Below, in pieces: positions 5,602-64,000 of a DNA stretch of 64,000 nucleotides. The translations under genes were made by a program, and so were the position numbers. Numbering within the stretch: the first letter of the stretch is position 1; each line of letters opens with the position of its first letter. This DNA comes from Triatoma infestans. Lineage: Eukaryota > Arthropoda > Insecta > Hemiptera > Reduviidae. Under the pieces are notes generated by a model. It searched no databases, was not told the origin of the DNA, and saw only the letters and a program-made list of their open reading frames with translations. Location of the stretch: the NCBI GenBank assembly GCA_011037195.1, contig JAAEAF010014808.1, positions 62,001 through 126,000 of the forward strand, written 5' to 3'.

Positions 5602-5835
5602 ATTATTATTATAACCTATATAGGGTAATATAAGGACTCCCACTCATCGCTATATTTAATTATAAATATTAACTGCAGTTAGAGAAACTCGTTGAAACAA
5701 TTTCAGCCCAAATTTTTAAATTTTTTTACTACTGGTTAGAAGAAGAAATATAAACGGTTTCAATTGAGTTTTCACCTTGAAATGCCCTTTTCGAGGTTCT
5801 CCTGAGTCAAGAAAGTGGATTTTAGAAAATGGTCC

Positions 5836-6010
5836 ACCATTGTTGTGGTTGGTTCCGCAGAACTGGAAAGTATCAGAGATATTTTCCATGATTAGCCTGC
5901 TTCTTTTTGCAGGTCATCGACTGGTTTCCGGCAGCCGCCCATCATCAGCATCTGTTTTTGTCAATACAGTGTGATAACGTAGACTTACACAGAGCAAATT
6001 TCGTTGATAC
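5836..6010 (-). repeat. Family A ribozyme repeat, left palindrome arm
   Basis: About 175 bp matching the 12.1 and 8.0 kb copies, from the GGTTGGTTCCGCAGAACTGG edge to CACAGAGCAAATTT. It carries a degenerate hammerhead core at 5919-5948. It sits at the inner end of the left arm, divergent from the copy at 7970-8150. Confidence 0.75.
5919..5948 (-). ncRNA. Hammerhead-like motif, family A, degenerate
   Basis: On the minus strand: CTGATGA, one extra T, a helix II tract GGGCGGCTGCC, then GGAAACCAGTC. Helix II is damaged and the ACCGGT palindrome has become ACCAGT. Probably inactive. It is the partner of the motif at 8048-8077. Confidence 0.5.
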
Positions 6011-6041
6011 ACTATCTCTGATGGTCTATGTTTGTTTGCGG

Positions 6042-7951: not shown

Positions 7952-7969
7952 ACACGCAAACAAACATAG

Positions 7970-8150
7970 ACCAAACATAGAGATAGTATATCAACTAAAT
8001 TTGCTCTGTGCAAGTCTAGGTTATCGCATTGTATTCACGAAAACATCCTGATGATGGGCGGAAGCCCGAAACCAATCGATGACCTGCAAAAAAGAAGCAG
8101 GCTATCACGGAAAATATCTCTGATGGTTTCCAGTTCTGCGGAACCAACCA
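7970..8150 (+). repeat. Family A ribozyme repeat, right palindrome arm
   Basis: Runs from TCAACTAAATTTGCTCTGTG through the hammerhead core at 8048-8077 to GCGGAACCAACCACAACC. It mirrors 5836-6010. The outer flank on both sides is the same HINE-like segment, so the repeat predates the inverted duplication. Confidence 0.75.
8048..8077 (+). ncRNA. Hammerhead-like ribozyme motif, family A
   Basis: CTGATGA (8048-8054), one extra T, helix II GGGC-GGAA-GCCC (8056-8067), GAA (8068-8070), A15.1 at 8071 and a candidate cleavage base C at 8077. Helix I forms as CATC (8044-8047) with GATG (8078-8081). The loopless helix III palindrome has mutated to ACCAAT, which weakens it. The core matches the natural hammerhead consensus CUGANGA...GAAA. 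Activity is unproven. Confidence 0.65.
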
Positions 8151-8266
8151 CAACCAAGGTGGACCATTTTCTAAAAAATCCACTTTCTCGACGCAGGAGA
8201 ACCTCGAAAAGTTTATTTCCGGTGAAAATTCAATTTCGATAAATGAACACGTAATTCTTCTTCTAG

Positions 8267-11171: not shown

Positions 11172-11923
11172 TTATTATGATTTGTCTGTGAGGAGGGAAA
11201 CCCTACGCTATCCAAAACCTCACTGGACCCATATAGCTACCCCAAGAAAAACAACAACAAACCGGGTCTAGAACTAAAATCCAGACCCGGATCTGATCCA
11301 TCTCAGTTTCATCGCAGTCCGAATAAATCGGACAATAACCTTAAGCGGAAATAGTCTAAGCTCTTCCACAGACATCCTATTCCGACCAAAGGTCCTAAAC
11401 CTAATTTCATCACAACCCAGGCAATCAATCATAAGATGGATGGGTGTTTCCTCTTCTGTCTCACAGACTCTACAAAATCGATCCGGCATGAGCCCCATTA
11501 TGTAGAGATGTCTCCTTAAACCACAATGACCAGTAAGAGATCCGACCAGATGCGATGCCTGAGAGCGCTCCGTGAAAAACACAGCAACGTCTTACTGATG
11601 GCCTTGTCCGGACCACTGATGAGCATTTTGGACTGCCGAAAACCTACTGAGCTCATCCATAAGAATGAATGCTGTGAAGCTGTCCATGTCTGGAAGCCTG
11701 ACAGATATGTGCCAGAAGACCAGCCAACAGCTGGCTCGGGACCAATGAAAGGAAGAGAGGTGCCTAATTTGGCAAACCTATCCACCTCCTCATTCCCAAA
11801 AATTCCCATGTGACCTGGCACCCAGACTAGAAGCACATCCAGAGAAGAAAGCTCTTCCAGTCATTTAGAACATTCTAACACCAACCTGGAAGTAAAGACA
11901 CATGAACTCAGCGCCTTCAGCAA
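11172..11923 (-). mobile_element. Retro-B copy 1: 5'-truncated non-LTR element (RNase H end and zinc knuckle)
   Basis: Minus-strand frames give the end of RNase H (LLVWVPGHMGIFGNEEVDRF, about 11777-11836) and, after a frameshift near 11550, SLTGHCGLRRHLYIMGL and the knuckle CRVCETEEETPIHLMIDC, then a conserved C-terminus to about 11274. The 3' UTR ends in an ATT/TAA-type tail near 11172-11180. A direct repeat GGGTTAGATAT (11161-11171) / GGGTTAGGTAT (11924-11934), one mismatch, is the target-site duplication. RNase H plus a TAA-type tail suggests the I group; that is inference. Frameshifted and dead. Confidence 0.8.
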
Positions 11924-12009: not shown

Positions 12010-12112
12010 TTGATGGATTTTGCCCATAATCTTCATTTCAGAAGCGATAGTAGTCTCCAAACAGAATATTAAGTTTAAACTTCCTGCGACACACACACAC
12101 ATATATATGTTG
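12010..12112 (+). mobile_element. HINE-like fragment with CA-rich tract
   Basis: Matches the family segment that precedes the microsatellite (CTAAACGGAATATCAAGTTT in other copies) and ends in ACACACACAC. The family A foldback at 12115 follows directly, as though it inserted in the microsatellite. Confidence 0.45.
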
Positions 12113-12189
12113 TTGTGATGGTTGGTTCCGCAGAGTTGGAAAGCAACAGAGACATTTTCCGTGGTAGCCTGCTTCATTTTGTGGTCATC

Positions 12190-12219
12190 GACCGGTTTCG
12201 GGCGTTCGCCCATCCTCAG
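12190..12219 (-). ncRNA. Hammerhead-like ribozyme motif, family A
   Basis: Minus strand: CTGAGGA, extra T, helix II GGGC-GAAC-GCCC, GAA, then ACCGGT and C17 (complement of 12190). Helix I pairs CATC with GATG across the core. All core positions fit CUGANGA...GAAA...UH except for the one extra base after A9. Helix III is a loopless palindrome, so cleavage would likely need a dimer, as described for Penelope-type and retrozyme hammerheads. Confidence 0.7.
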
Positions 12220-12391
12220 GATGCGTTTTTCAGACAGTGTGACAACACAGACTTGCACAGAGCAACTTAGTTTCTCACTAACTCTTTTACTCTTCACACT
12301 AACTCAACTTAGTTTAACACTAACGAGTTAGTGTGTAAACTAAATTTGCTCTGTGCAAGTCTGTGTTGTCACACTGTTTGAAAAACGCATC

Positions 12392-12421
12392 CTGAAGATG
12401 GGCGAACGCCCGAAACCGGTC
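12392..12421 (+). ncRNA. Hammerhead-like ribozyme motif, family A (best copy)
   Basis: CTGAAGA (12392-12398), extra T (12399), helix II GGGC-GAAC-GCCC (12400-12411), GAA (12412-12414), palindrome ACCGGT (12415-12420) and C17 (12421). Helix I inner part is CATC (12388-12391) with GATG (12422-12425); an internal loop follows, then an outer helix TTTG (12377-12380) with CAAA (12430-12433). An inner helix, internal loop and outer helix is the usual type I layout. Predicted cleavage is between 12421 and 12422. Confidence 0.75.
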
Positions 12422-12495
12422 GATGACCACAAAATGAAGCAGGCTACCACGGAAAATGTCTCTGATACATATATATGTATATAATATATACTTGT

Positions 12496-13770: not shown

Positions 13771-14604
13771 TAAAGTGATAACTAGTTTTGTAGACACTCC
13801 TGAAGATGTTTAAACAGATTTATATAATTTAAAAAATTAAAAAAAAAATTCTTTTTTTGAATAAATATAATATAATGTATAGGTCAAGTAGATGTTGTTT
13901 TGTACAATGTATTTAAACAGGCTTCAGATGGACGCATGATATTTAAATGTCACTGGGTCTTTTATAATAATTTTATAAGGTGGAATCTTTCTTGAAAAAA
14001 AATAAATAAATAAATAAATTAAATAAAAACACAAATTAAATTAGTTTTTTTTTCTATCTGAGAATTAAATCCTAGAAATGAAATTTGGTTTCATCAAATA
14101 TTATAGGAATGTGTATATAAATGATATGATGTATTTTGAAAGAATTCTCAAACCATTATACTGGCAAAAAGATGAGCAGAACCATTCCTTTAAGAGTACA
14201 AGGAAATAAGATTTCTAACATAACTTTCGGCTATTAAATTTCAATTATAATATTGCCTAAGTGAATTTTTATATTTAAAAAAAAGGAAATTCCTGATTAT
14301 GAATTCCATTTGGACACTATTAGAGAATTTTTAAACCTGTCGAGTGGATCGAAAATACTTCCTAACTGATTATTTTTTTTTTTTTTTTTAGTGATTTTTT
14401 TATGGAGTGGAGGGATTCCATTATAATCTTCGTTTTCGACCTCAATAAAATGGTCCGTGACTTACTTAACATGATAGTTTTCTTCTCTCGATGTTATCTT
14501 CACCAAAAAAAAAGAAAAAAGAAGAAGTGAAGTAACGCCTATTGCTTCAAGCAAGCATCGTAGATGAAGACGGTTAATAAATTAGCTAATATACTTAACT
14601 TGTA
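13771..14604. other. AT-rich interval, nothing recognised
   Basis: Homopolymer runs (T-run at 14373-14389), no coding signal, no window repeat noticed. Confidence 0.45.
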
Positions 14605-14647
14605 TCAGAGACATTTTCCGTGGTAGCCTGCTGCTTCATTTTGTGAT

Positions 14648-15282
14648 TGTAGTGGAATCGTTTATTGTGATTCCTGAGGTATGCAGTATATGTCTTGAAG
14701 AGGGCGGAAGTTAGTTTAGAGATTTTGGAAGTTAGTGCTTGAATTATTAACACGGAATTTATAAAAATATACAACTGTATTTGTACAATAATTTAAACGT
14801 GAGTAATGGTAACTATTAACAAGAAATACTTAGAAATAAATAGGAGATAAATAACTAATAATTTAGAATGATTAAAATAAATGAACTAAGATGCACAACT
14901 AAGGAAATAAGTATATATAAAAATCTGTATAGGGACGCGGAACTGTTACACGTATAATAGTCTTGAAAACGTACTGAAGTATAATCCTCCCCTCTTTCAA
15001 TGGGGCGAAGTTTAAATCAGTGTTAGCAACACTCACACCAAGACATCTGTCCTAGTGTGCGATTTTGTGCGACCTTGGTTAGTTCGGTGACCAGCGATTT
15101 AGGTCATTGGCCAGCTTATCGGTGCTTGCTTTGATGTAAAGTATTGACCCTTGGTTTTGTTTGTTTGGCCGCGGCCTTGTCTTGAGGACAGCGGCCGGCT
15201 AGGCCACTAGTTATAAATTATTCTTTCTTTTGTTATGTGTTGTGAAGGTTTGACATTGCTATGACATTGCCACGTCATTACA
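14648..15282 (+). mobile_element. Solo LTR 1 (635 bp, Gypsy-like)
   Basis: Starts TGTAGTGGAATCG, ends CGTCATTACA (TG...CA) and is flanked by a 4-bp target duplication TGAT (14644-14647 and 15283-15286). A near-identical sequence with its own 4-bp duplication is at 45446-46060. Internal marks include CTGAAGTATAATCC (possible promoter) and a GC-rich block with GGCCGCGGCC. No primer-binding site or internal coding region is adjacent, so it is a recombination remnant. Assignment to Gypsy rests only on the TG...CA ends and 4-bp duplication. It inserted into a family A repeat. Confidence 0.85.
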
Positions 15283-15556: not shown

Positions 15557-15640
15557 ATGATGACCACAAAATGAAGCAGGCTTGCACGGAAAATGTCTCT
15601 GATGCTTTCCAGCTCTGCGGAACCAACCACCACAACATAC

Positions 15641-16372
15641 ACGTACTTCACTTGTTTTGTGCTTGATATAGCGGCCTGCTTGGCTGTCTATGACTGTAAC
15701 CACTCAGCTACTGTGGGCAACTCCGCCAAATATGCATCCTTACTTTCTCTTCTAGCATATCGCATATCAAATTTTTCAGCGAAATATGTGTTTTCTGGAA
15801 ATGTTGTTTTATAAAGAATGTTCTTTCTTTCGCCATTAATCTATTCATTCCATAGCAATTAAATATGCATTTTTCTTTACTAATTATTGCTAACATTTCT
15901 CATCCTTTCTCATATCATCTATAAAAACTATACTGAATGATTTGAAGAAAAAATTTTTTTGTTTTAACACATATCACTCTTCTTAACATCTCTTTAAAAA
16001 AGTCTTCTTCAATCTACATCTTAAGCTAACGCATTTCCATTGTCAAAAGATCTTTCCCCTGTATTATCCCGCCGTTTTATTTATTTATAATCATTTCCTA
16101 AGCTAGGAGAAATTGTCTAAGACTGAATATTTCTTAACTAAGTGTTAGGAAACTCGAGATTTATAATAGAATTAGTTTTTTTTTTAATTTAACTTATTTG
16201 GCACTTAATGGAATACTAATTCCCTATGTAAATACAAATAATTTACGCATTGTCTTACCAGACGCTGTAATATGACACTTTTTAGAAGCATTTCATGGTA
16301 AATGGTAGAATGACCGCATTGCTTTGCTTGCAAGAAATTTGCTATTTTTAATCTTGTTATAATAATTAATTA
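15641..16372. other. AT-rich interval, nothing recognised
   Basis: Short frames here match no family. No RNA gene or repeat was noticed. Confidence 0.45.
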
Positions 16373-40339: not shown

Positions 40340-40585
40340 AGTTTATTTTTACTTTCTCTTCTTACACCTAATTAGAGGTAGTTACTGTTAGAGATAAGTT
40401 CGTGTCAAATTTTCAAAATTGAGTTTTCACCGGAAATACCTGTTTTGAGGTCCCCTGAATACGAAATAAAAGTTTTTAGTGAATGTATGTCCCAACGATT
40501 TTCGTTAAATTTCGCACACTATCTATACACATAAATACCAATTAATTTTATTTGTAACATTTTCCGGTAAAAATGTATTTTACAT
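40340..40585 (-). mobile_element. HINE-like 3' fragment
   Basis: Minus-strand 3' end: TTTTACTTTCTCTTCTTACA, then GTGTCAAATTTTC, GAGTTTTCACCGGAAATACC and TGTTTTGAGGTCCCCTGAAT. Its inner half is missing where the RTE-like element begins. Confidence 0.6.
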
Positions 40586-40589
40586 ACTT

Positions 40590-41956
40590 ATGCGGAATTT
40601 TTATTGCGAAATTTTAAATTTCAAATGTAGCCGATACCTTTTGCGCGCCATAAAAAGTCTTTACAGATCCGCACGAGCAAGAGTCCAAATGAAGACGGGT
40701 TTTGTAACAGATAGTTTTCCGATTACAAAGGGGGTAAAGCTAGGATGTTCGCTAACGCCCACTCTTTTTAATATTTGTGTGGAACACGTGCTGGACCTAT
40801 GGAAAAGGAAGTGTGCCCTAGATATGGGGATCAGAATTGGAGATGACACATTATATACACTGCAGTTTGCTGACGACCAAGTCATCATAGTGGAAGATGC
40901 CGATGATGATAGCGGCGTACATGATGAGGAAACTAAATGAAGAATTCCTCAAGTGGGGATTGGAGGTCAGCAAAGCAAAAAGACAGAATATATGGTTTGT
41001 GGCGAAATCGTGTGATACCTAAAGATTGATGATAATTGGTTTATTTCCTCGGTAAATGATTTCAAATATCTCGGGTTTTCAATCAACCAATTAGGGGGAC
41101 CAGTGACGCGGACATTTTAAAGAAAAGCCAGTCTGGTAGAAACATGGTGAGGGCACTGAATTCTGTCTTAGATAGGGTAAGTTGAAAGAAAAATTTATCA
41201 TGCCTTCATAGTATAATGGAGTTGATGAGGAGAGAAATTGGGATTGATTAATTAGACGAAATATGAAGATACTGTTATAATATAGATATAAGTTAACACA
41301 AGCTGCACTGGACTTGTAATGATTTTATAGAATAAAAGGTGGGAGTAGAGACATGACACGATGCGATGTATGGTTGAATCTGATAGATGATATCTAGATC
41401 TCTCACTGGCTTATATACAGGTTCTCCCCGCTCTAGCCTGCATAAGTCAGAGAGTACCAGAGAGAGTCTGTTTTCTCTCGGTCGGGCTTGTGTTCTCTCT
41501 CTCTTGCCGTTACAATAGAAATTGTAGCCCTCGATGGTTCGGAATGCTGGACGGTTACAAGAAAGCTGGAAAGAACTCTTCTGGTCATGGAGATGGACTT
41601 CTGGAAGGCGAAGCTGTGGAGTCTCCAGATTGGAAAATGTCCCTAACGAGATATACGGCGGCGCGCACGGCGATCCTGCAACATTATCCACACGTAGAAA
41701 CCCGGCGGTTAATTTGGTATGGTCATGTCATGAGGATGAGGGAGAAATGGCCAAAAAAAAAAATGCTCCATTACAGGCCGGTGGAGAGGAGACTCCGCGG
41801 TAGGTCAAGGAAGTTAAGGATGGACGGCATGACGGTAGCTCTGATGGCTAGAGGTCTACGTGAAGGAGAATCGCAAGATAGAGAATACTGGAGGGAAACT
41901 CTTATGGGCAACGGGATGCACTAAACGGTGTAAATATCCGTAAAAAAAAAAAAAAA
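40590..41956 (+). mobile_element. RTE-like non-LTR retrotransposon relic, RT palm to C-terminus
   Basis: The first frame (40590-40937) is RT: LLRAIKSLYRSARARVQMKT, KGVKLGCSLTPTLFNICVEH (motif B region; L replaces Q) and TLQFADDQVIIVED (catalytic FADD box, about 40860-40900). Further frames give EFLKWGLEVSKAK, SVNDFKYLGFSINQLGG and MVRALNSVLDRVS. After a foreign insert, IVALDGSECWTVTRKLERTL (about 41520-41580) and RRLIWYGHVMRMREKWPKK with RRLRGRSRKLRMDGM and REYWRETLMG end the protein at about 41924. A poly-A tail is at 41942-41956. Different subfamily from 21018-22092. Frameshifted and dead. Confidence 0.85.
41275..41510. mobile_element. ~235 bp insertion of unknown class inside the RTE-like relic
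   Basis: Separates ...KYEDTVI from EIVALDGSECWT, which should be contiguous. Near-repeats GTTATAAT and GTTACAAT border it. The ends could also be read as TG...CA (TGTTATAATATAG to GCCGTTACA), which would suit a very short LTR, but no matching flank duplication is seen for that reading. It contains pyrimidine-rich CTCTCTCTCTTGCC at the right. Confidence 0.45.
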
Positions 41957-42749: not shown

Positions 42750-43165
42750 GTCCAATTTTGAAATGAGATATATCTCTCACAAAAGAATCTGGACGTCTAT
42801 AAAACGTGCAGCCCCTTTAAAGTGATCCAAGGGGCTGTATGAAGGGGCTATCAACTGTGGCCAGGAGACGTTTTAGAATAATAAGTAATATAACTGCCTT
42901 ACGCGTATTTTATTTTTATTTTGTATAATGCTATTAATTATGATAGGAAGTGTCTAATGCTGATACGCTAGGAAAATAATCTTTGTAAATTCACTAGAAA
43001 CCACTCTTTTCGTGGGCATCTCGGTTTTATTCTATATCAATCAAATGGATATGGCAAAAAACTAAAGTCTGTCTCCATAGGCAGGAAGACAGCAACAATC
43101 AAACATTGTGGCTATATTCTTAGAGAATATCAGCTATTTTTCGCTGATAGACTGCATTATGATGG
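42750..43165 (+). repeat. Repeat G, copy 1 (empty site for the 51.3 kb insertion)
   Basis: Shares ATATCTCTCACAAAAGAATC, CTATAAAACGTGCAGCC and the block AGTCTGTCTCCATAGGCAGG with 51218-51825. At CCCTTTAAAGTGATCC it is continuous, where the other copy has a 122-bp insertion. A GACCTAGTGTATTCAGAAAG block just upstream (about 42711) recurs at about 43296. Non-coding. Confidence 0.75.
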
Positions 43166-43640
43166 TATCCAACGATTTAAGCGTTCATCTATCTCCAGGA
43201 AATTTGATGAATTGTTTGGAGATTGTTAACTAGCATCTATATTAACAAGCGCACACTGCCTTCTTTTATAAAATTGCTTGTAAATGTGACGGGTTGACCT
43301 AGTATATTCAGAAAGACTTGGAAGCTAATGTTGGTAGCAAACCTAGACAACGAAGGCCAGAAAAGAACGGCGAAGAAACTGCGGCCTGCTTGTCAGACGT
43401 CCCCTGATAAAAATATCCGTCTGGCAAACCTTCATGGGCTGTTGCGCTTTCGGTATCACTAGAGGATTCAAAATCTGTCAGCCTCAATGGCGACTTAACT
43501 TTCTTTAAACATATTATACCCTCCTCATATCTACAGGCCAATATCTTTATTTGAAATCTGGAAATTTTGATTTGTAAGTATCATACGTAGTAAGAGAGGC
43601 ATTGGTTATGTTCCTATTTACTACATATTTCACATTTATA
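43166..43640. other. Unclassified interval
   Basis: A minus-strand frame (43308-43541, 77 codons) contains SSSDTESATAHEGLPDGYFY and similar, matching nothing I recognise. No splice or promoter evidence. Confidence 0.35.
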
Positions 43641-45445: not shown

Positions 45446-46060
45446 TGTAGTGGAATCGTTTATTGTGATTCCTATGGTATGTAGTAGATGCTTGAAGAGG
45501 GCGGAAGTTAGTTTAGAGATTTCTCGGAAGTTAGTGCTCGAATTATTAACACTGAATTTATAAAAAATTACAATAATTTAAACATGAGTAATGATAAATA
45601 TTAACAAGAAATACTTAGAAATAAATAGGAGATAAATAACTAATAATTTAGAATGATTAAAATAAATAAACTAAGATGCACAACTAAGGAAATAAGTATA
45701 AATAAAACCTGTATAGGGACGCAGAACTGCTGCTCGTATATGATAATCTAATGAGTGCTGAAGTATAATCATCCCCTCTTCCAATGGGGCGAAGTTTATA
45801 TATTAGTGTTAGCAACACTCACACCAAGACATCTGTTCTAGTGTGCGACCTTGGTTATTTCGGTGACCAGCGATTTAGGTCAGTGGCCAATTTTATCGGT
45901 GCTTGCTTTGATGTAAAGTATTGACCCTTGGTTTTGTTTGTTTGGCCGCGGCCTTGTCTTGAAGACAGCAGCCGGCTAGGCCACTAGTTATAAATTATTC
46001 TTTCTTTTTGTTATGTGTTGTGAAGGTTTGACATTGCTATGTCCTTGCCATGTCATTACA
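45446..46060 (+). mobile_element. Solo LTR 2 (615 bp, same family as 14648-15282)
   Basis: Starts TGTAGTGGAATCG, ends TGTCATTACA; 4-bp duplication ATAA at 45442-45445 and 46061-46064. Same internal landmarks: GGACGCAGAACTG, TGGGGCGAAGTTTA, ACACTCACACCAAGACATCT, GGCCGCGGCC, CGGCTAGGCCACTAGTTATA. The orientation is the same as LTR 1. No internal region remains. Confidence 0.85.
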
Positions 46061-47284: not shown

Positions 47285-48213
47285 GAATAGAATAGAAGAA
47301 GCGGGGGGGGGGGGGTAGCCTCATTCCACTGCGACCTACAAGTTGAGGTCGATTGTGGATCCCCTTAAGTTACAGAACAGCCCCCAGCTTTGCCCTCCTA
47401 ATCAATCCTAGCAAAGCTGAGAACGGCTCCATCATGAAGCTTTCAGATTCGGGATTGCCCGTCCCCAATTGAAGAAACTTAATCCACGCCAGGCCGGCGC
47501 ACACACAAAGGATGTGCGCCAGGGTCTCCTCCTCTACCTTGCAGAATCGGCATACCGCACTATCCGCAAGTTGTAGGTGGTGCATGTGTCTATTCAGCCT
47601 ACAATGCCCTGTTAGTAGACCCACAATTAACCTTATATCCCTTCGGGTCTGGCTCAGTAGGTCTTTGGTAAATTTAGGCAAATGTCTTTTAATGAAGAGC
47701 TTTGCCTGCCTCTGTCCTGGTGTTCCTCCCACCAACGCAGACGCTGATCTTCTATCCACCCCCTGATAGAAGTTTGAATGAGGCTCCTGGACAAGCCGCA
47801 GAAGGGTTCGGGGCCTATAAAGGTATCCTGCGAACCCTCCCTCGCTAGGGCATCCGCCCTCTCATTGCCCAGGAACCCCGCATGTCCCGGCACCCAGGCG
47901 AGTGTCAGTTTATTCTGAGTACCCACCTCGGTGAGGGCAAGTAGGCAGTCCCACACCAGTCTTGAGACTATTTGGTGTGAGGAAAGTGCCTTCAGGGCTG
48001 CCTGAGTGTCGGAGTATATGGCCACTCTTCTGCCCAACATCTTTTGTTTTATAATCTCCCTAGCGCAGAGTTGTAACGCCACGACTTCAGCCTGAAAGAC
48101 CGTGGCGTACTTCCCTAGGCTGGCGTTAATTTTAACTTCCCCCGTAGACTCCAGCTCCGACCCCAGTCGGAATTTGGATCCATCTGTATACCAGATCGAG
48201 TTACCGAACAGGG
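47285..48213 (-). mobile_element. Retro-C copy 2: RNase H and C-terminus, 5'-truncated
   Basis: Best protein in the window. The minus-strand frame 48232-47654 encodes RNase H: IWYTDGSKFRLGSELES (first Asp), VFQAEVVALQLCA (Glu), RRVAIYSDTQAALKALSS (second Asp), LAWVPGHAGFLGNERADALA (His/Asp), then EGSQDTFIGPEPFCGLSRSL. A frameshift near 47720 leads to RRDIRLIVGLLTGHCRLNRH, the knuckle CRFCKVEEETLAHILCVC and GLIRRAKLGAVL (47370). The first six codons come from flanking DNA, so the ATG is accidental. A 12-bp duplication AATTGCGCAGTA at 47273-47284 and 48214-48225 fixes the 929-bp insertion. The 3' tail is ATTCT repeats after a C-run. All RNase H catalytic residues are present. Confidence 0.9.
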
Positions 48214-48488
48214 AATTGCGCAGTAAAATCAAATGAGATTTTTTTTTTTTTTCAAAATTCGGAATTTTGGTTTAAATTATATAAGTGATGGAATCGTATA
48301 ATAAAATTAAATAGCAATTTAGAGGAATGTATGATCACACGTCTCCTCAATGACATCCCTTTAATGAATATTCCCGTCAAAAATATTTCATTCATAAGAC
48401 ATAGACCTTCCATGTATGAATGAATACCACAATGTTTAAAGAAAATTGTCTCAGCTATTTTTGAGAAAATTGGAAAAGTTAAAAAAAA
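48214..48488 (+). mobile_element. HINE-like internal fragment
   Basis: Continuation of the fragment interrupted by retro-C: CAAAATTCGGAATTTTGG, TAAATAGCAATTTAGAGG, GAATATTCCCGTCAAAAATA, CAGCTATTTTTGAGAAAATT. It adjoins a complete family copy at 48489. Confidence 0.55.
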
Positions 48489-51217: not shown

Positions 51218-51825
51218 CGAATTTTGAAATCAGATATATATCTCACAAAAGAATCTGGATGTCTATAAAACGTCCAGCCTCTTTAAAGTTTTGTTTTTCC
51301 TACGCCATTATAAATGGACGCGCTGGCGATTGATGTGTTATTCGTGGAGTTGAATATCCAGGGGGCACGTGAGAACAATCTCGGACGTGAACAACTTCAC
51401 CCTCCCCCCCTTTAAAGTGATATAAGGAGCTGTCATGAAAGTTGGAGAGAACAGGGTTCAATTTAAGGGAGTACAACGAGTCTCAGAGCAGTCTATTATC
51501 TGTTGGAAGGGGATTCATTAGAATATGTATAATAATTGCCTTACGCTGATTTTTTTTAAATTTTATTTTGCATAATTATTAATTATGAGAGGAAGTGTCT
51601 AATGCTGATACGTTTGGAAACTAATCTCCGTAAATTCGCTAGAAACCAGTCTTTTTTTATTTTCATGGGAATCTCTGTTTTATTTTATATAAATCAAATG
51701 GATATGGCAAAAAACTGTTAAGAGTCTGTCTCCATAGGCAGGAAGACAGCAACAATCAAACCTTGTGGCTATATTTTTAGAGAATATCAGCTACTTTTTC
51801 GCTGATAGTCTGCTTTATGATGGAC
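51218..51825 (+). repeat. Repeat G, copy 2, with a 122-bp insertion
   Basis: Homologous to 42750-43165. The insertion at 51288-51409 lies between two CTTTAAAG copies (51280-51287 and 51410-51417) and carries GTTGAATATCCAGGGGGCAC, also found inverted at 2365-2530. The empty form is preserved at 42.8 kb. Confidence 0.75.
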
Positions 51826-57957: not shown

Positions 57958-58472
57958 CAAAATATGTATTATTCTAACAAATTATTTATGTACTATTACA
58001 AAAAACATACAAAATATGTATTATTCTAACAAATTATTTATGTATTATTACAAAAAACATACAAAATATGTATTAATTTCTAACAAATTATTTATGTATT
58101 ATTACAAAAAACATACAAAATATGTATTATTCTAACAAATTATTTATGTATTATTACAAAAAACACAAAATATGTATTATTCTAACAAATTATTTATGTA
58201 TTATTACAAAAAACATACAAAATATGTATTATTCTAACAAATTATTTATGTATTATTACAAAAAACATACAAAATATGTATTCTAACAAATTATTTATGT
58301 ATTATTACAAAAAAACATACAAAATAAGTATTATTCTAACAAATTTATTTATGTATTATTACAAAAAAACATACAAAATATGTATTATTCTAACATATTA
58401 TTTATGTATTATTACAAAAAAACATACAAAATATGTATTATTCTAACAAATTATTTATGTATTACTATAAAA
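57958..58472. repeat. 52-bp minisatellite, ~10 copies
   Basis: Units begin near 57958, 58010, 58062, 58116, 58166, 58218, 58270, 58320, 58374 and 58427. Each contains AAAATATGTATTATTCTAAC, AAATTATTTATGTATTATTA and an A-run with CATAC. Period varies 50-54 bp because of the A-run and a small deletion in unit 7. The open frame through it is a product of the repeat, not a gene. Confidence 0.95.
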
Positions 58473-58701
58473 AATGATGAATTTACTTTAAATTTTATTT
58501 TCTTGAAAATTCTTATTCAGTTACATAATATGGAAATGTTGGAGGTACTATAGTGGGTTAGCACCATGGCAGGTAGCAAAAAAACAGCACAAAAACAATG
58601 AACAAATCTCAAAAAACAAAAAAATAAGCTTTTGGTTAGTGCAATATTACTATTTTATCCAGTATTTTATCCGTCATAGCATGCATATTAGTTTTATTCC
58701 T

Positions 58702-58731
58702 CACCGGTTTCGGATTTTCATCCATCGTCAG
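58702..58731 (-). ncRNA. Hammerhead-like motif, family B (left)
   Basis: Minus strand: CTGACGA, extra T, perfect helix II GGAT-GAAA-ATCC, GAA, palindrome ACCGGT. The base at position 17 is G, where hammerheads need A, C or U, and helix I pairs poorly. The layout is conserved but cleavage is doubtful. Confidence 0.5.
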
Positions 58732-58943
58732 AACAAATTCACCAAGTTCGTATAGAGAGTTCACTTCAACGAAATGTTACTGTAGACTCACACTTGTAAG
58801 TTGTATATATGTGGGAAGGTTATCAAGTGAATACATTGGGTGGATAACCTTCCCATATATATATATATATATAATCTACAAATGTGAGTCTACAGTAACA
58901 TTTCGTTGAAGTTAACACTCTATACGAACTTGGTGAATTTGTT

Positions 58944-58974
58944 CTGACGATGGATGAAAATTCGAAACCCGGTG
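58944..58974 (+). ncRNA. Hammerhead-like motif, family B (right)
   Basis: CTGACGA (58944-58950), extra T, helix II GGAT-GAAA-ATTC (one G-T pair), GAA, then ACCCGGT with one extra C, and G at position 17. Mirror of 58702-58731; probably inactive. Confidence 0.45.
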
Positions 58975-59030
58975 AGGAATAAAACTAATATGCATGCTAT
59001 GACGAATAAAATACCGGATATTATCCAGCA

Positions 59031-59389
59031 TTACGGACCTACCCACATTTTCAAGATTATAATTTTAAATTAATACAGTTTTCTTTTAAAATTGGATAAA
59101 TATATTATTTTCGAACGCATAAAACAACGCTATCTATCATCCAGCCAACAAATACTTTTTAATCCACATGAAATCAATTGTTTTCGAAAAAACGTATATA
59201 TTACTTACAAGACAGCCTTCAAGTTTTTAAGAAAAAAAAAAATAGTTGAAGTCGAATTGGATAAAATTTTAAAAAAACTTTGTAACCTATCATGTAAAGT
59301 AGCACTTTCAATTAATTGATGATTTTTTTTTTATTTCAAATTGGAATCTAGCAACTTCTAATAGATATGGTATGACCATTATATTTGAG
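59031..59389. other. AT-rich interval, nothing recognised
   Basis: An open frame at 59092-59319 encodes a lysine-rich 75-mer with no recognisable domain; possibly chance in A-rich DNA. Confidence 0.35.
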
Positions 59390-63390: not shown

Positions 63391-63397
63391 GTTGTTG

Positions 63398-63642
63398 TTG
63401 TTGGTTCCGCAGAGCTGGAAAGCATCAGATATTATTTTTTCCATGATATCCTGCTTCTGTTTGTGGTCATCGACCGGTTTCAGGCGTTCGTCCATCTTCA
63501 GGATGTATTTGTCAAACAGTGTAATAACACAGACTTATACAGAGCAAATACAGTTGATACATTCAACTGTATAACTGTAGTGGATCAACTGTATTTTTGC
63601 TCTACGCAAGTCTATCTTATCACACTGTTTTGACAAAAACAT
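63398..63642. repeat. Family A divergent pair, right arm cut by an LTR
   Basis: The left arm 63398-63565 is a full repeat with a core on the minus strand. The right arm 63580-63642 starts TGTATTTTTGCTCTACGCAA and stops at ACAAAAACAT, 1-2 bases before CTGA would begin, because LTR 3 starts at 63643. The centre (ACAGTTGATACATTCAACTG) is itself palindromic. Confidence 0.8.
63472..63501 (-). ncRNA. Hammerhead-like motif, family A, helix II damaged
   Basis: Minus strand: CTGAAGA, extra T, GGACGAACGCCT (helix II mismatched), GAA, palindrome ACCGGT, C17. Helix I CATC/GATG is kept. The core is conserved but helix II is weakened, so activity is doubtful. Confidence 0.55.
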
Positions 63643-64000
63643 TGTAGTGGAATCAATTGTCGATAATCAATATAATGATAATACTGGTGATACTGATGAT
63701 ACTGTAGCTACTGATATAATGATATAATGATCCCCTCCTCCAGTGGGGCGAAGTTTATATTAGTATTACTCACAACTCACATTATGACATCTCTCGTAGT
63801 GTGCGACCTTGGCCAGGTCGGCGACCAATGTCATTTAAGTCAATGGCCAGCTTTATCGGTGCTTGTCTTTGATGTAATGTATTGACCCTTGTATTGAAAA
63901 GGGTTTGTGTTTGGCCGCGGCCCTTGTCTTGAAGACAGCGGCCGGCTGGGCTACTAGTTATAAATTATCCTTTCTTCCTGCCATCCTTTGTAAAGATGGC
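63643..64000 (+). mobile_element. LTR 3 of the TGTAGTGG family, cut by window end
   Basis: Starts TGTAGTGGAATCAATTG; shares TGGGGCGAAGTTTATATTAG, GGCCGCGGCC, GACAGCGGCCGGCTGGG and CTACTAGTTATAAATTATCC with LTRs 1 and 2. The first ~90 bp are diverged and ~200 bp shorter. Whether it is solo or the 5' LTR of a longer element cannot be told here. Confidence 0.8.

Follow-up and report, generated by a model that had tools for sequence, protein, structure and literature searches.

The window (by which is meant the whole stretch of 64,000 nucleotides of Triatoma infestans DNA under analysis) carries at about 12111-12466 an insertion, locus A, that is a near-perfect foldback. A spacer of 74 nt separates its two arms (12147-12268 and 12343-12464), whose 98% complementarity, together with profile matches at 12118-12289 on the minus strand and 12322-12468 on the plus strand, defines two units lying head to head. 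Each arm, read outward, has the form CATC-CTGANGA-U-GGGC-loop-GCCC-GAA-ACC-GGT-C-GATG, that of a hammerhead-like core. On the right, the core occupies 12387-12428 (plus strand), with C3 at 12392, an ATG at 12398-12400, the palindrome ACCGGT at 12415-12420, and C17 at 12421, the cut being predicted between 12421 and 12422. On the left, it occupies 12183-12224 (minus strand), with C3 at 12219, the ATG at 12213-12211, C17 at 12190, and a predicted cut between 12190 and 12189. The original prediction had named CTGANGA, a GGGC/GCCC hairpin, GAAA, ACCGGT, and C17 in both arms, and all are present on both strands; the cut site it proposed agrees with the position of C17 at 12421. The helix I it proposed fares less uniformly: CATC/GATG is found in both arms, but TTTG/CAAA, as judged by eye, is exact in the right arm and in a further copy (locus C, below) and inexact in the left arm and in copies D and E.

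The outer ends of the two arms are not the same. Beyond +69 (counted by hand from the ATG), the left arm runs on into an AC-rich tail of about 34 nt (12111-12144, minus strand), which is absent from the right arm. Flanking the whole is a 12-nt direct repeat, ACATATATATGT, with one copy at 12099-12110 and the other at 12467-12478 (plus strand; 12/12 identical), a match found in 0.03-0.05% of random pairs. The repeat is a candidate target-site duplication, though not a conclusive one, because its context is AT-rich and palindromic.

A full descriptor, requiring a helix I of 4 bp, the core, helices II and III, and a U16.1-H17 cut site, has exactly two matches in the 64-kb window, both at locus A; in 60 shuffles that preserved dinucleotides, it matched 0.017 times on average and never more than once. 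Four copies of a stricter string, CTGANGATG..GAAACCGG, are present in the window, and the same 60 shuffles averaged 0. The hammerhead-like cores are real and exceed the expectation from chance. They were not recognized by covariance models, the check put forward with the original prediction: the hammerhead models of Rfam 15 gave nothing in the window at E<=10, nothing in the 141-nt core region alone, and nothing at the gathering score. The sole deviation from the hammerhead consensus, which the original prediction passed over, is an additional U between A9 and G10.1. An active viroid hammerhead with an extra base after A9 was reportedly described by de la Pena & Flores in 2001. Here the extra base is simply explained, as it builds a start codon: A9-U-G10.1 reads ATG, so the ribozyme is located at the start of an open reading frame (ORF), and the predicted cut falls 24 nt downstream of that start (+24/+25).

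Other copies were located by BLAST and profile search within the 64-kb window. Copies D (7978-8151, plus strand) and E (5845-6021, minus strand) are inverted partners within a longer inverted repeat (5762-6040 and 7955-8235, 87%), and locus C (63391-63565, minus strand) is a unit with a core and an (AAC)n tail end, accompanied by a partial inverted arm that goes on to 63642; all three were found by BLAST, profile, and a model of the core. An insertion at 14.6-15.6 kb is bounded by two unit fragments (BLAST and profile), the left at about 14604-14645 (minus strand), tailless and ending at +69, and the right at about 15559-15643 (plus strand), beginning at +25 and carrying the tail. Finally, locus B (58657-59046) is a divergent foldback, family B as opposed to the family A of the foregoing, with arms at 58657-58798 (minus strand; profile E 2.8e-26) and 58877-59046 (plus strand; profile E 2.2e-33) that match at 87%. 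Profile and core model place its cores at 58695-58736 (minus strand) and 58939-58981 (plus strand), both with G for C17. When six of the cores were used to build a 42-nt model, it recovered all six together with the second core of family B (seven in total), and the next match had an E value of 0.19. Weak profile matches at 43122-43223 and 51779-51817 (both minus strand; E 0.0013 and 0.0095) are alike beyond the matched part and may be decayed relatives, a third family of such units. Near foldback B lies a tandem array (57958-58474) of about 10 copies of a 52-bp unit, with 94% matches.

Translated from the ATG, the left arm of A has 39 open codons, which was as far as the translation went; the frame stays open for 35 codons in C and for 29 in the left arm of B. 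Locus C has one additional codon, in frame, and family B aligns with family A codon for codon across 23 codons. Copy E is frameshifted, with a stop at codon 17, and the right arm of B has a 1-nt insertion. Copy D is open over the 39 codons translated, but the shared peptide carries on in another frame, indicating a frameshift. Differences at the first, second, and third codon positions number 6/8/14 between the right arm of A and the left arm of B, 5/7/11 between C and the left arm of B, and 1/6/0 between the right arm of A and C. The evidence for a silent-site bias is mixed, so the claim that the frame is coding rests on the open frames, the 3-nt insertion or deletion, and the published layout of similar elements, not on silent changes.

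The ORF-side ends of the units are either tailless or tailed. Tailless ends lie at about +69 in the right arm of A and in the 14.6 kb fragment and at +69/+70 in the left arm of B; two of the ends score 67 if the left arm of A is the reference, owing to a substitution there. Tailed ends lie at about +103 in the left arm of A, the tail being 34 nt, and at +102 to +109 in the 15.6 kb copy; the right arm of B continues into sequence that matches the tail, and its end is not fixed. Both outer ends lie inside the window at four loci, and three of these (A, B, and 14.6-15.6 kb) have a tail on one arm only. The exception is D/E, where both arms have the tail and each runs about 80 nt further into a repeat (8162-8242 and 5763-5834) that is dispersed over ten or so other sites in the window and has (CA)n-rich flanks.

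The 14.6-15.6 kb insertion is also flanked by a direct repeat, TACTTAACTTGT at 14592-14603 (plus strand) and TACTTCACTTGT at 15644-15655, which agree at 11 of 12 positions, a level reached by 0.13% of random window pairs and 0.23% of AT-rich pairs. At locus B, inspection of the flanks by eye revealed no clear direct repeat. Between its two unit fragments, the 14.6-15.6 kb insertion holds about 0.9 kb, part of which (14648-15282) is a repeat 88.8% identical to 45446-46060, where no unit accompanies it. This repeat, whose starting sequence TGTAGTGGAATC occurs as an exact string three times in the window, is found a third time at 63643-64000, and it adjoins a truncated unit directly at 14648 and 63643 but not at 45446.

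Much of this anatomy is familiar from Penelope-like elements (PLEs) and their pLTRs. PMC3846280 describes Penelope of the rotifer Adineta vaga as having inverted pLTRs, an optional one-sided tail of 31 bp, duplications of 8-10 bp, palindromes at the inverted junctions, and unrelated DNA captured between pLTRs; the word "hammerhead" does not occur in the text searched. The inverted units, the one-sided tail (about 34 nt at locus A), the short duplications, the junction palindromes, and the enclosed unrelated DNA of the window are all like these, although here the pLTR spans about 23 codons rather than 12 and the duplications are of 12 nt rather than 8-10 bp. The ribozyme finds its counterpart in Poseidon of the lizard Anolis carolinensis (PAc), for which PMC11167929 reports an ORF that starts at stem II, with the cut falling 26 nt downstream of that start (24 nt in the present case), so that in both elements the hammerhead sits at the junction of pLTR and ORF. 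In PAc, reverse transcription starts at two sites, which bound an optional tail of 30-40 bp and lie in an AC-rich stem loop at 111-118 bp of the ORF; its start region as a whole, about 100-118 nt into the ORF, resembles the AC-rich end region found here. PAc, however, is active, full-length, and arranged in tandem arrays, unlike the pLTR-sized inverted copies of the window, with which no enzyme ORF was found, and the two are likened by layout, not by sequence. PMC7761336 reports minimal hammerheads within the pLTRs of PLEs.

PLE pLTR pairs with minimal hammerheads are a known kind of arrangement, to which the repeat in the window would belong. It is highly probable that the foldback at locus A is one insertion in which two PLE pLTRs meet head to head, and that in each of them the A9-U-G10.1 of a minimal type I hammerhead doubles as the ATG of the ORF. 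Small hammerhead variants of PLEs are said to cleave as dimers (work attributed to Cervera & de la Pena, 2014, and to Lunse et al., 2016/17), and these variants have in common with the present cores a minimal type I core and a very short palindromic helix III.

A PLE is marked by an ORF for a telomerase-like reverse transcriptase, joined in canonical members by a GIY-YIG endonuclease. Neither turned up when 26 ORFs of the window, each 110 amino acids or longer, were scanned (10 + 8 + 8 ORFs, at E<=0.001). The only matches among the 26 were to LINE-like RVT_1 and RNase H. The LINE-like fragments of reverse transcriptase and RNase H lie at 40509-40937 (plus strand), 47657-48271 (minus strand), and 11519-11860 (minus strand, below the Pfam cut-off); the first, an RVT_1 ORF, matched five solved chains, of which four were LINE-1 ORF2. 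The same 26 ORFs include no transposase, and this counts against a different account of the foldbacks, as DNA transposons with terminal inverted repeats, or foldback elements, whose arms are merely hammerhead-like. At most of the loci, indeed, two arms face outward as an inverted pair around an interior that varies, and the silence of the Rfam models would fit as well. Nevertheless, the two outer ends differ repeatedly (tail or +69), single truncated units occur, and family B retains its helix pairs, so that a DNA transposon is scarcely credible. It was an early candidate, set aside on published descriptions of PLEs, as was a SINE-like reading of the AC-rich end.

The window has no tandem or partial-tandem copies of the unit, only inverted or single units. 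Tandem copies are taken here as common in PLEs rather than required, because PMC3846280 includes copies with inverted pLTRs only. The original prediction allowed either a non-autonomous retrozyme or a remnant of a Penelope pLTR, and it is the latter that is well supported, by the nested ATG, the one-sided tail, the inverted units, the direct repeats of about 12 bp, and the captured DNA. A metazoan non-LTR retrozyme would be a non-autonomous repeat of about 170-190 bp, spread via circular RNA processed by its hammerhead. The size of the unit and the type I order fit, and according to PMC7229834 many invertebrates, insects among them, have retrozymes of about 170-400 nt. However, the animal retrozymes described there are tandem repeats (about 170-400 bp) giving circular RNAs, whereas the window is without tandem monomers, and the same paper places minimal hammerheads in PLEs. 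Moreover, the core bears the start of an ORF, with open frames and an in-frame insertion or deletion, and published PLEs show the same pattern of inverted units with the tail on one side. A retrozyme in the strict sense is therefore very improbable; a retrozyme derived from a pLTR and mobilized by a PLE is a possible variant.

If the units are PLE pLTRs, is the hammerhead still of use to them? Pairing was analyzed in six cores, the right-hand core of B being excluded for its insertion. Standard pairs fill 87.9% of the cells (87.5% in helix I, 91.7% in helix II, and 83.3% in helix III), a level reached by 2 of 500 shuffles, and the value is 21-45% with the partners slid. The original prediction had named pairing across copies as a check, and in the six cores that of helices I and II is largely retained. 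Two-sided changes affect four pairs, a number reached in none of 500 shuffles; the four represent a single lineage, because all come from the row of family B. A contrary measure is the number of further pair types, 6 as against a shuffled mean of 6.8, which was matched by all 500 shuffles.

Alternatively, the hammerhead of these pLTRs may be vestigial, its motif kept only by coding or by constraint at the level of DNA. Hammerheads with G17 are not known to be cleaved. The ribozyme of family B is probably dead, because the cut position is G in both of its cores, and the substitution is silent, falling in a Val codon. The lack of an Rfam match points the same way, as does the lizard PLE: in PMC11167929, its hammerhead needed added protein in order to cut, mutants remained capable of insertion in vitro, and the cut coincided with neither the start nor the end of any RNA-seq read. 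On the other hand, CTGANGA, GAAA, U16.1, and C17 are unbroken in all five family A cores, including those of the frameshifted D and E; CTGANG precedes the ATG, and so coding cannot maintain it; and one copy begins exactly at the predicted cut. On balance, a vestigial hammerhead is unlikely, but it deserves to be taken seriously.

Helix III could hardly form within one molecule, because it has no loop. Single-strand folds of four cores were not unusually stable (z of -0.56, -0.78, -1.87, and -0.70) and did not show the full hammerhead, nor was the unconstrained fold of a dimer a hammerhead. In the predicted fold of a transcript of the foldback, the core is paired arm to arm, so that the foldback's own transcript would hide the ribozyme. 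Since the arms of its transcript would pair with each other, locus A is probably a dead end.

How such an insertion might have come about can be inferred from the published model for PLEs. The element's protein would cut AT-rich DNA, and reverse transcription would begin on the RNA at the end of the AC-rich tail or near +69. The cDNA would cross the pLTR and then either turn back or switch template to a second, oppositely oriented pLTR. Given two start sites, a turn or switch of this sort would leave an insert with a tail on only one of its outer arms, flanked by duplicated targets. The hammerhead would work in transcripts of one unit or of units in tandem, perhaps dimerizing through the palindromic ACCGGT, and would cut between C17 and G1.1.

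The copy at 15.6 kb bears on this last step. Its homology to the other units runs out precisely at G1.1 (+25), the base with which the predicted cleavage product starts. Two other internal junctions lie elsewhere: in the 14.6 kb fragment the unit starts near +31, and the end of C's partial arm falls at -21 (compared with the left arm of A) or near -8 (compared with the other arm of C). For three junctions over about 165 nt, one exact match to +25 has a chance of 1.8%, and for this reason, and because the match was spotted before being tested, the junction is a lead only. It is suggestive, one hint that cleaved RNA may be used. Perhaps hammerhead-cleaved PLE RNA serves as a template for reverse transcription in vivo, and the cDNA at 15559 then switched to an unrelated transcript, but this is rather doubtful. 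If true, the genomic 5' junctions of pLTR copies record a ribozyme activity unseen in the RNA-seq of the lizard. The junction bears on the role of the ribozyme because in the lizard study the cut was not represented among the reads and insertion in vitro did not require cleavage. The present repeat is of use chiefly for asking what difference, if any, the ribozyme makes to the element: many short pLTR insertions in one genome would provide a direct test of whether 5' junctions pile up at +25.

With the core as a signature, one can also search for copies of the kind that the Rfam models passed over in the window. Among viral contigs, the strict core pattern had no matches and a looser pattern found 12 stretches, by our own estimate about the number expected by chance. 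A helix II of 4 bp is present in two of the 12 (from contigs L007 and L013), and pairing in helix I (2 bp) is found beside that of L007 only. The stretch in L007 (9863-9904 of this IMG/VR contig) is core-like, at 30.7 bits, a score biased by the sequence having been retrieved on account of its match; it has an ATG followed by a stop after two codons. A scan of genome contigs with the core pattern gave one match, which is bacterial, has a helix II of only 2 bp, and lies inside a frame of 694 codons. Rfam's microRNA models gave weak matches, far under the gathering score, to mir-3149 and mir-2489 at 58774-58901 and 63520-63623 (both minus strand); each falls on the palindromic middle of a foldback, that of B and that of C, respectively.
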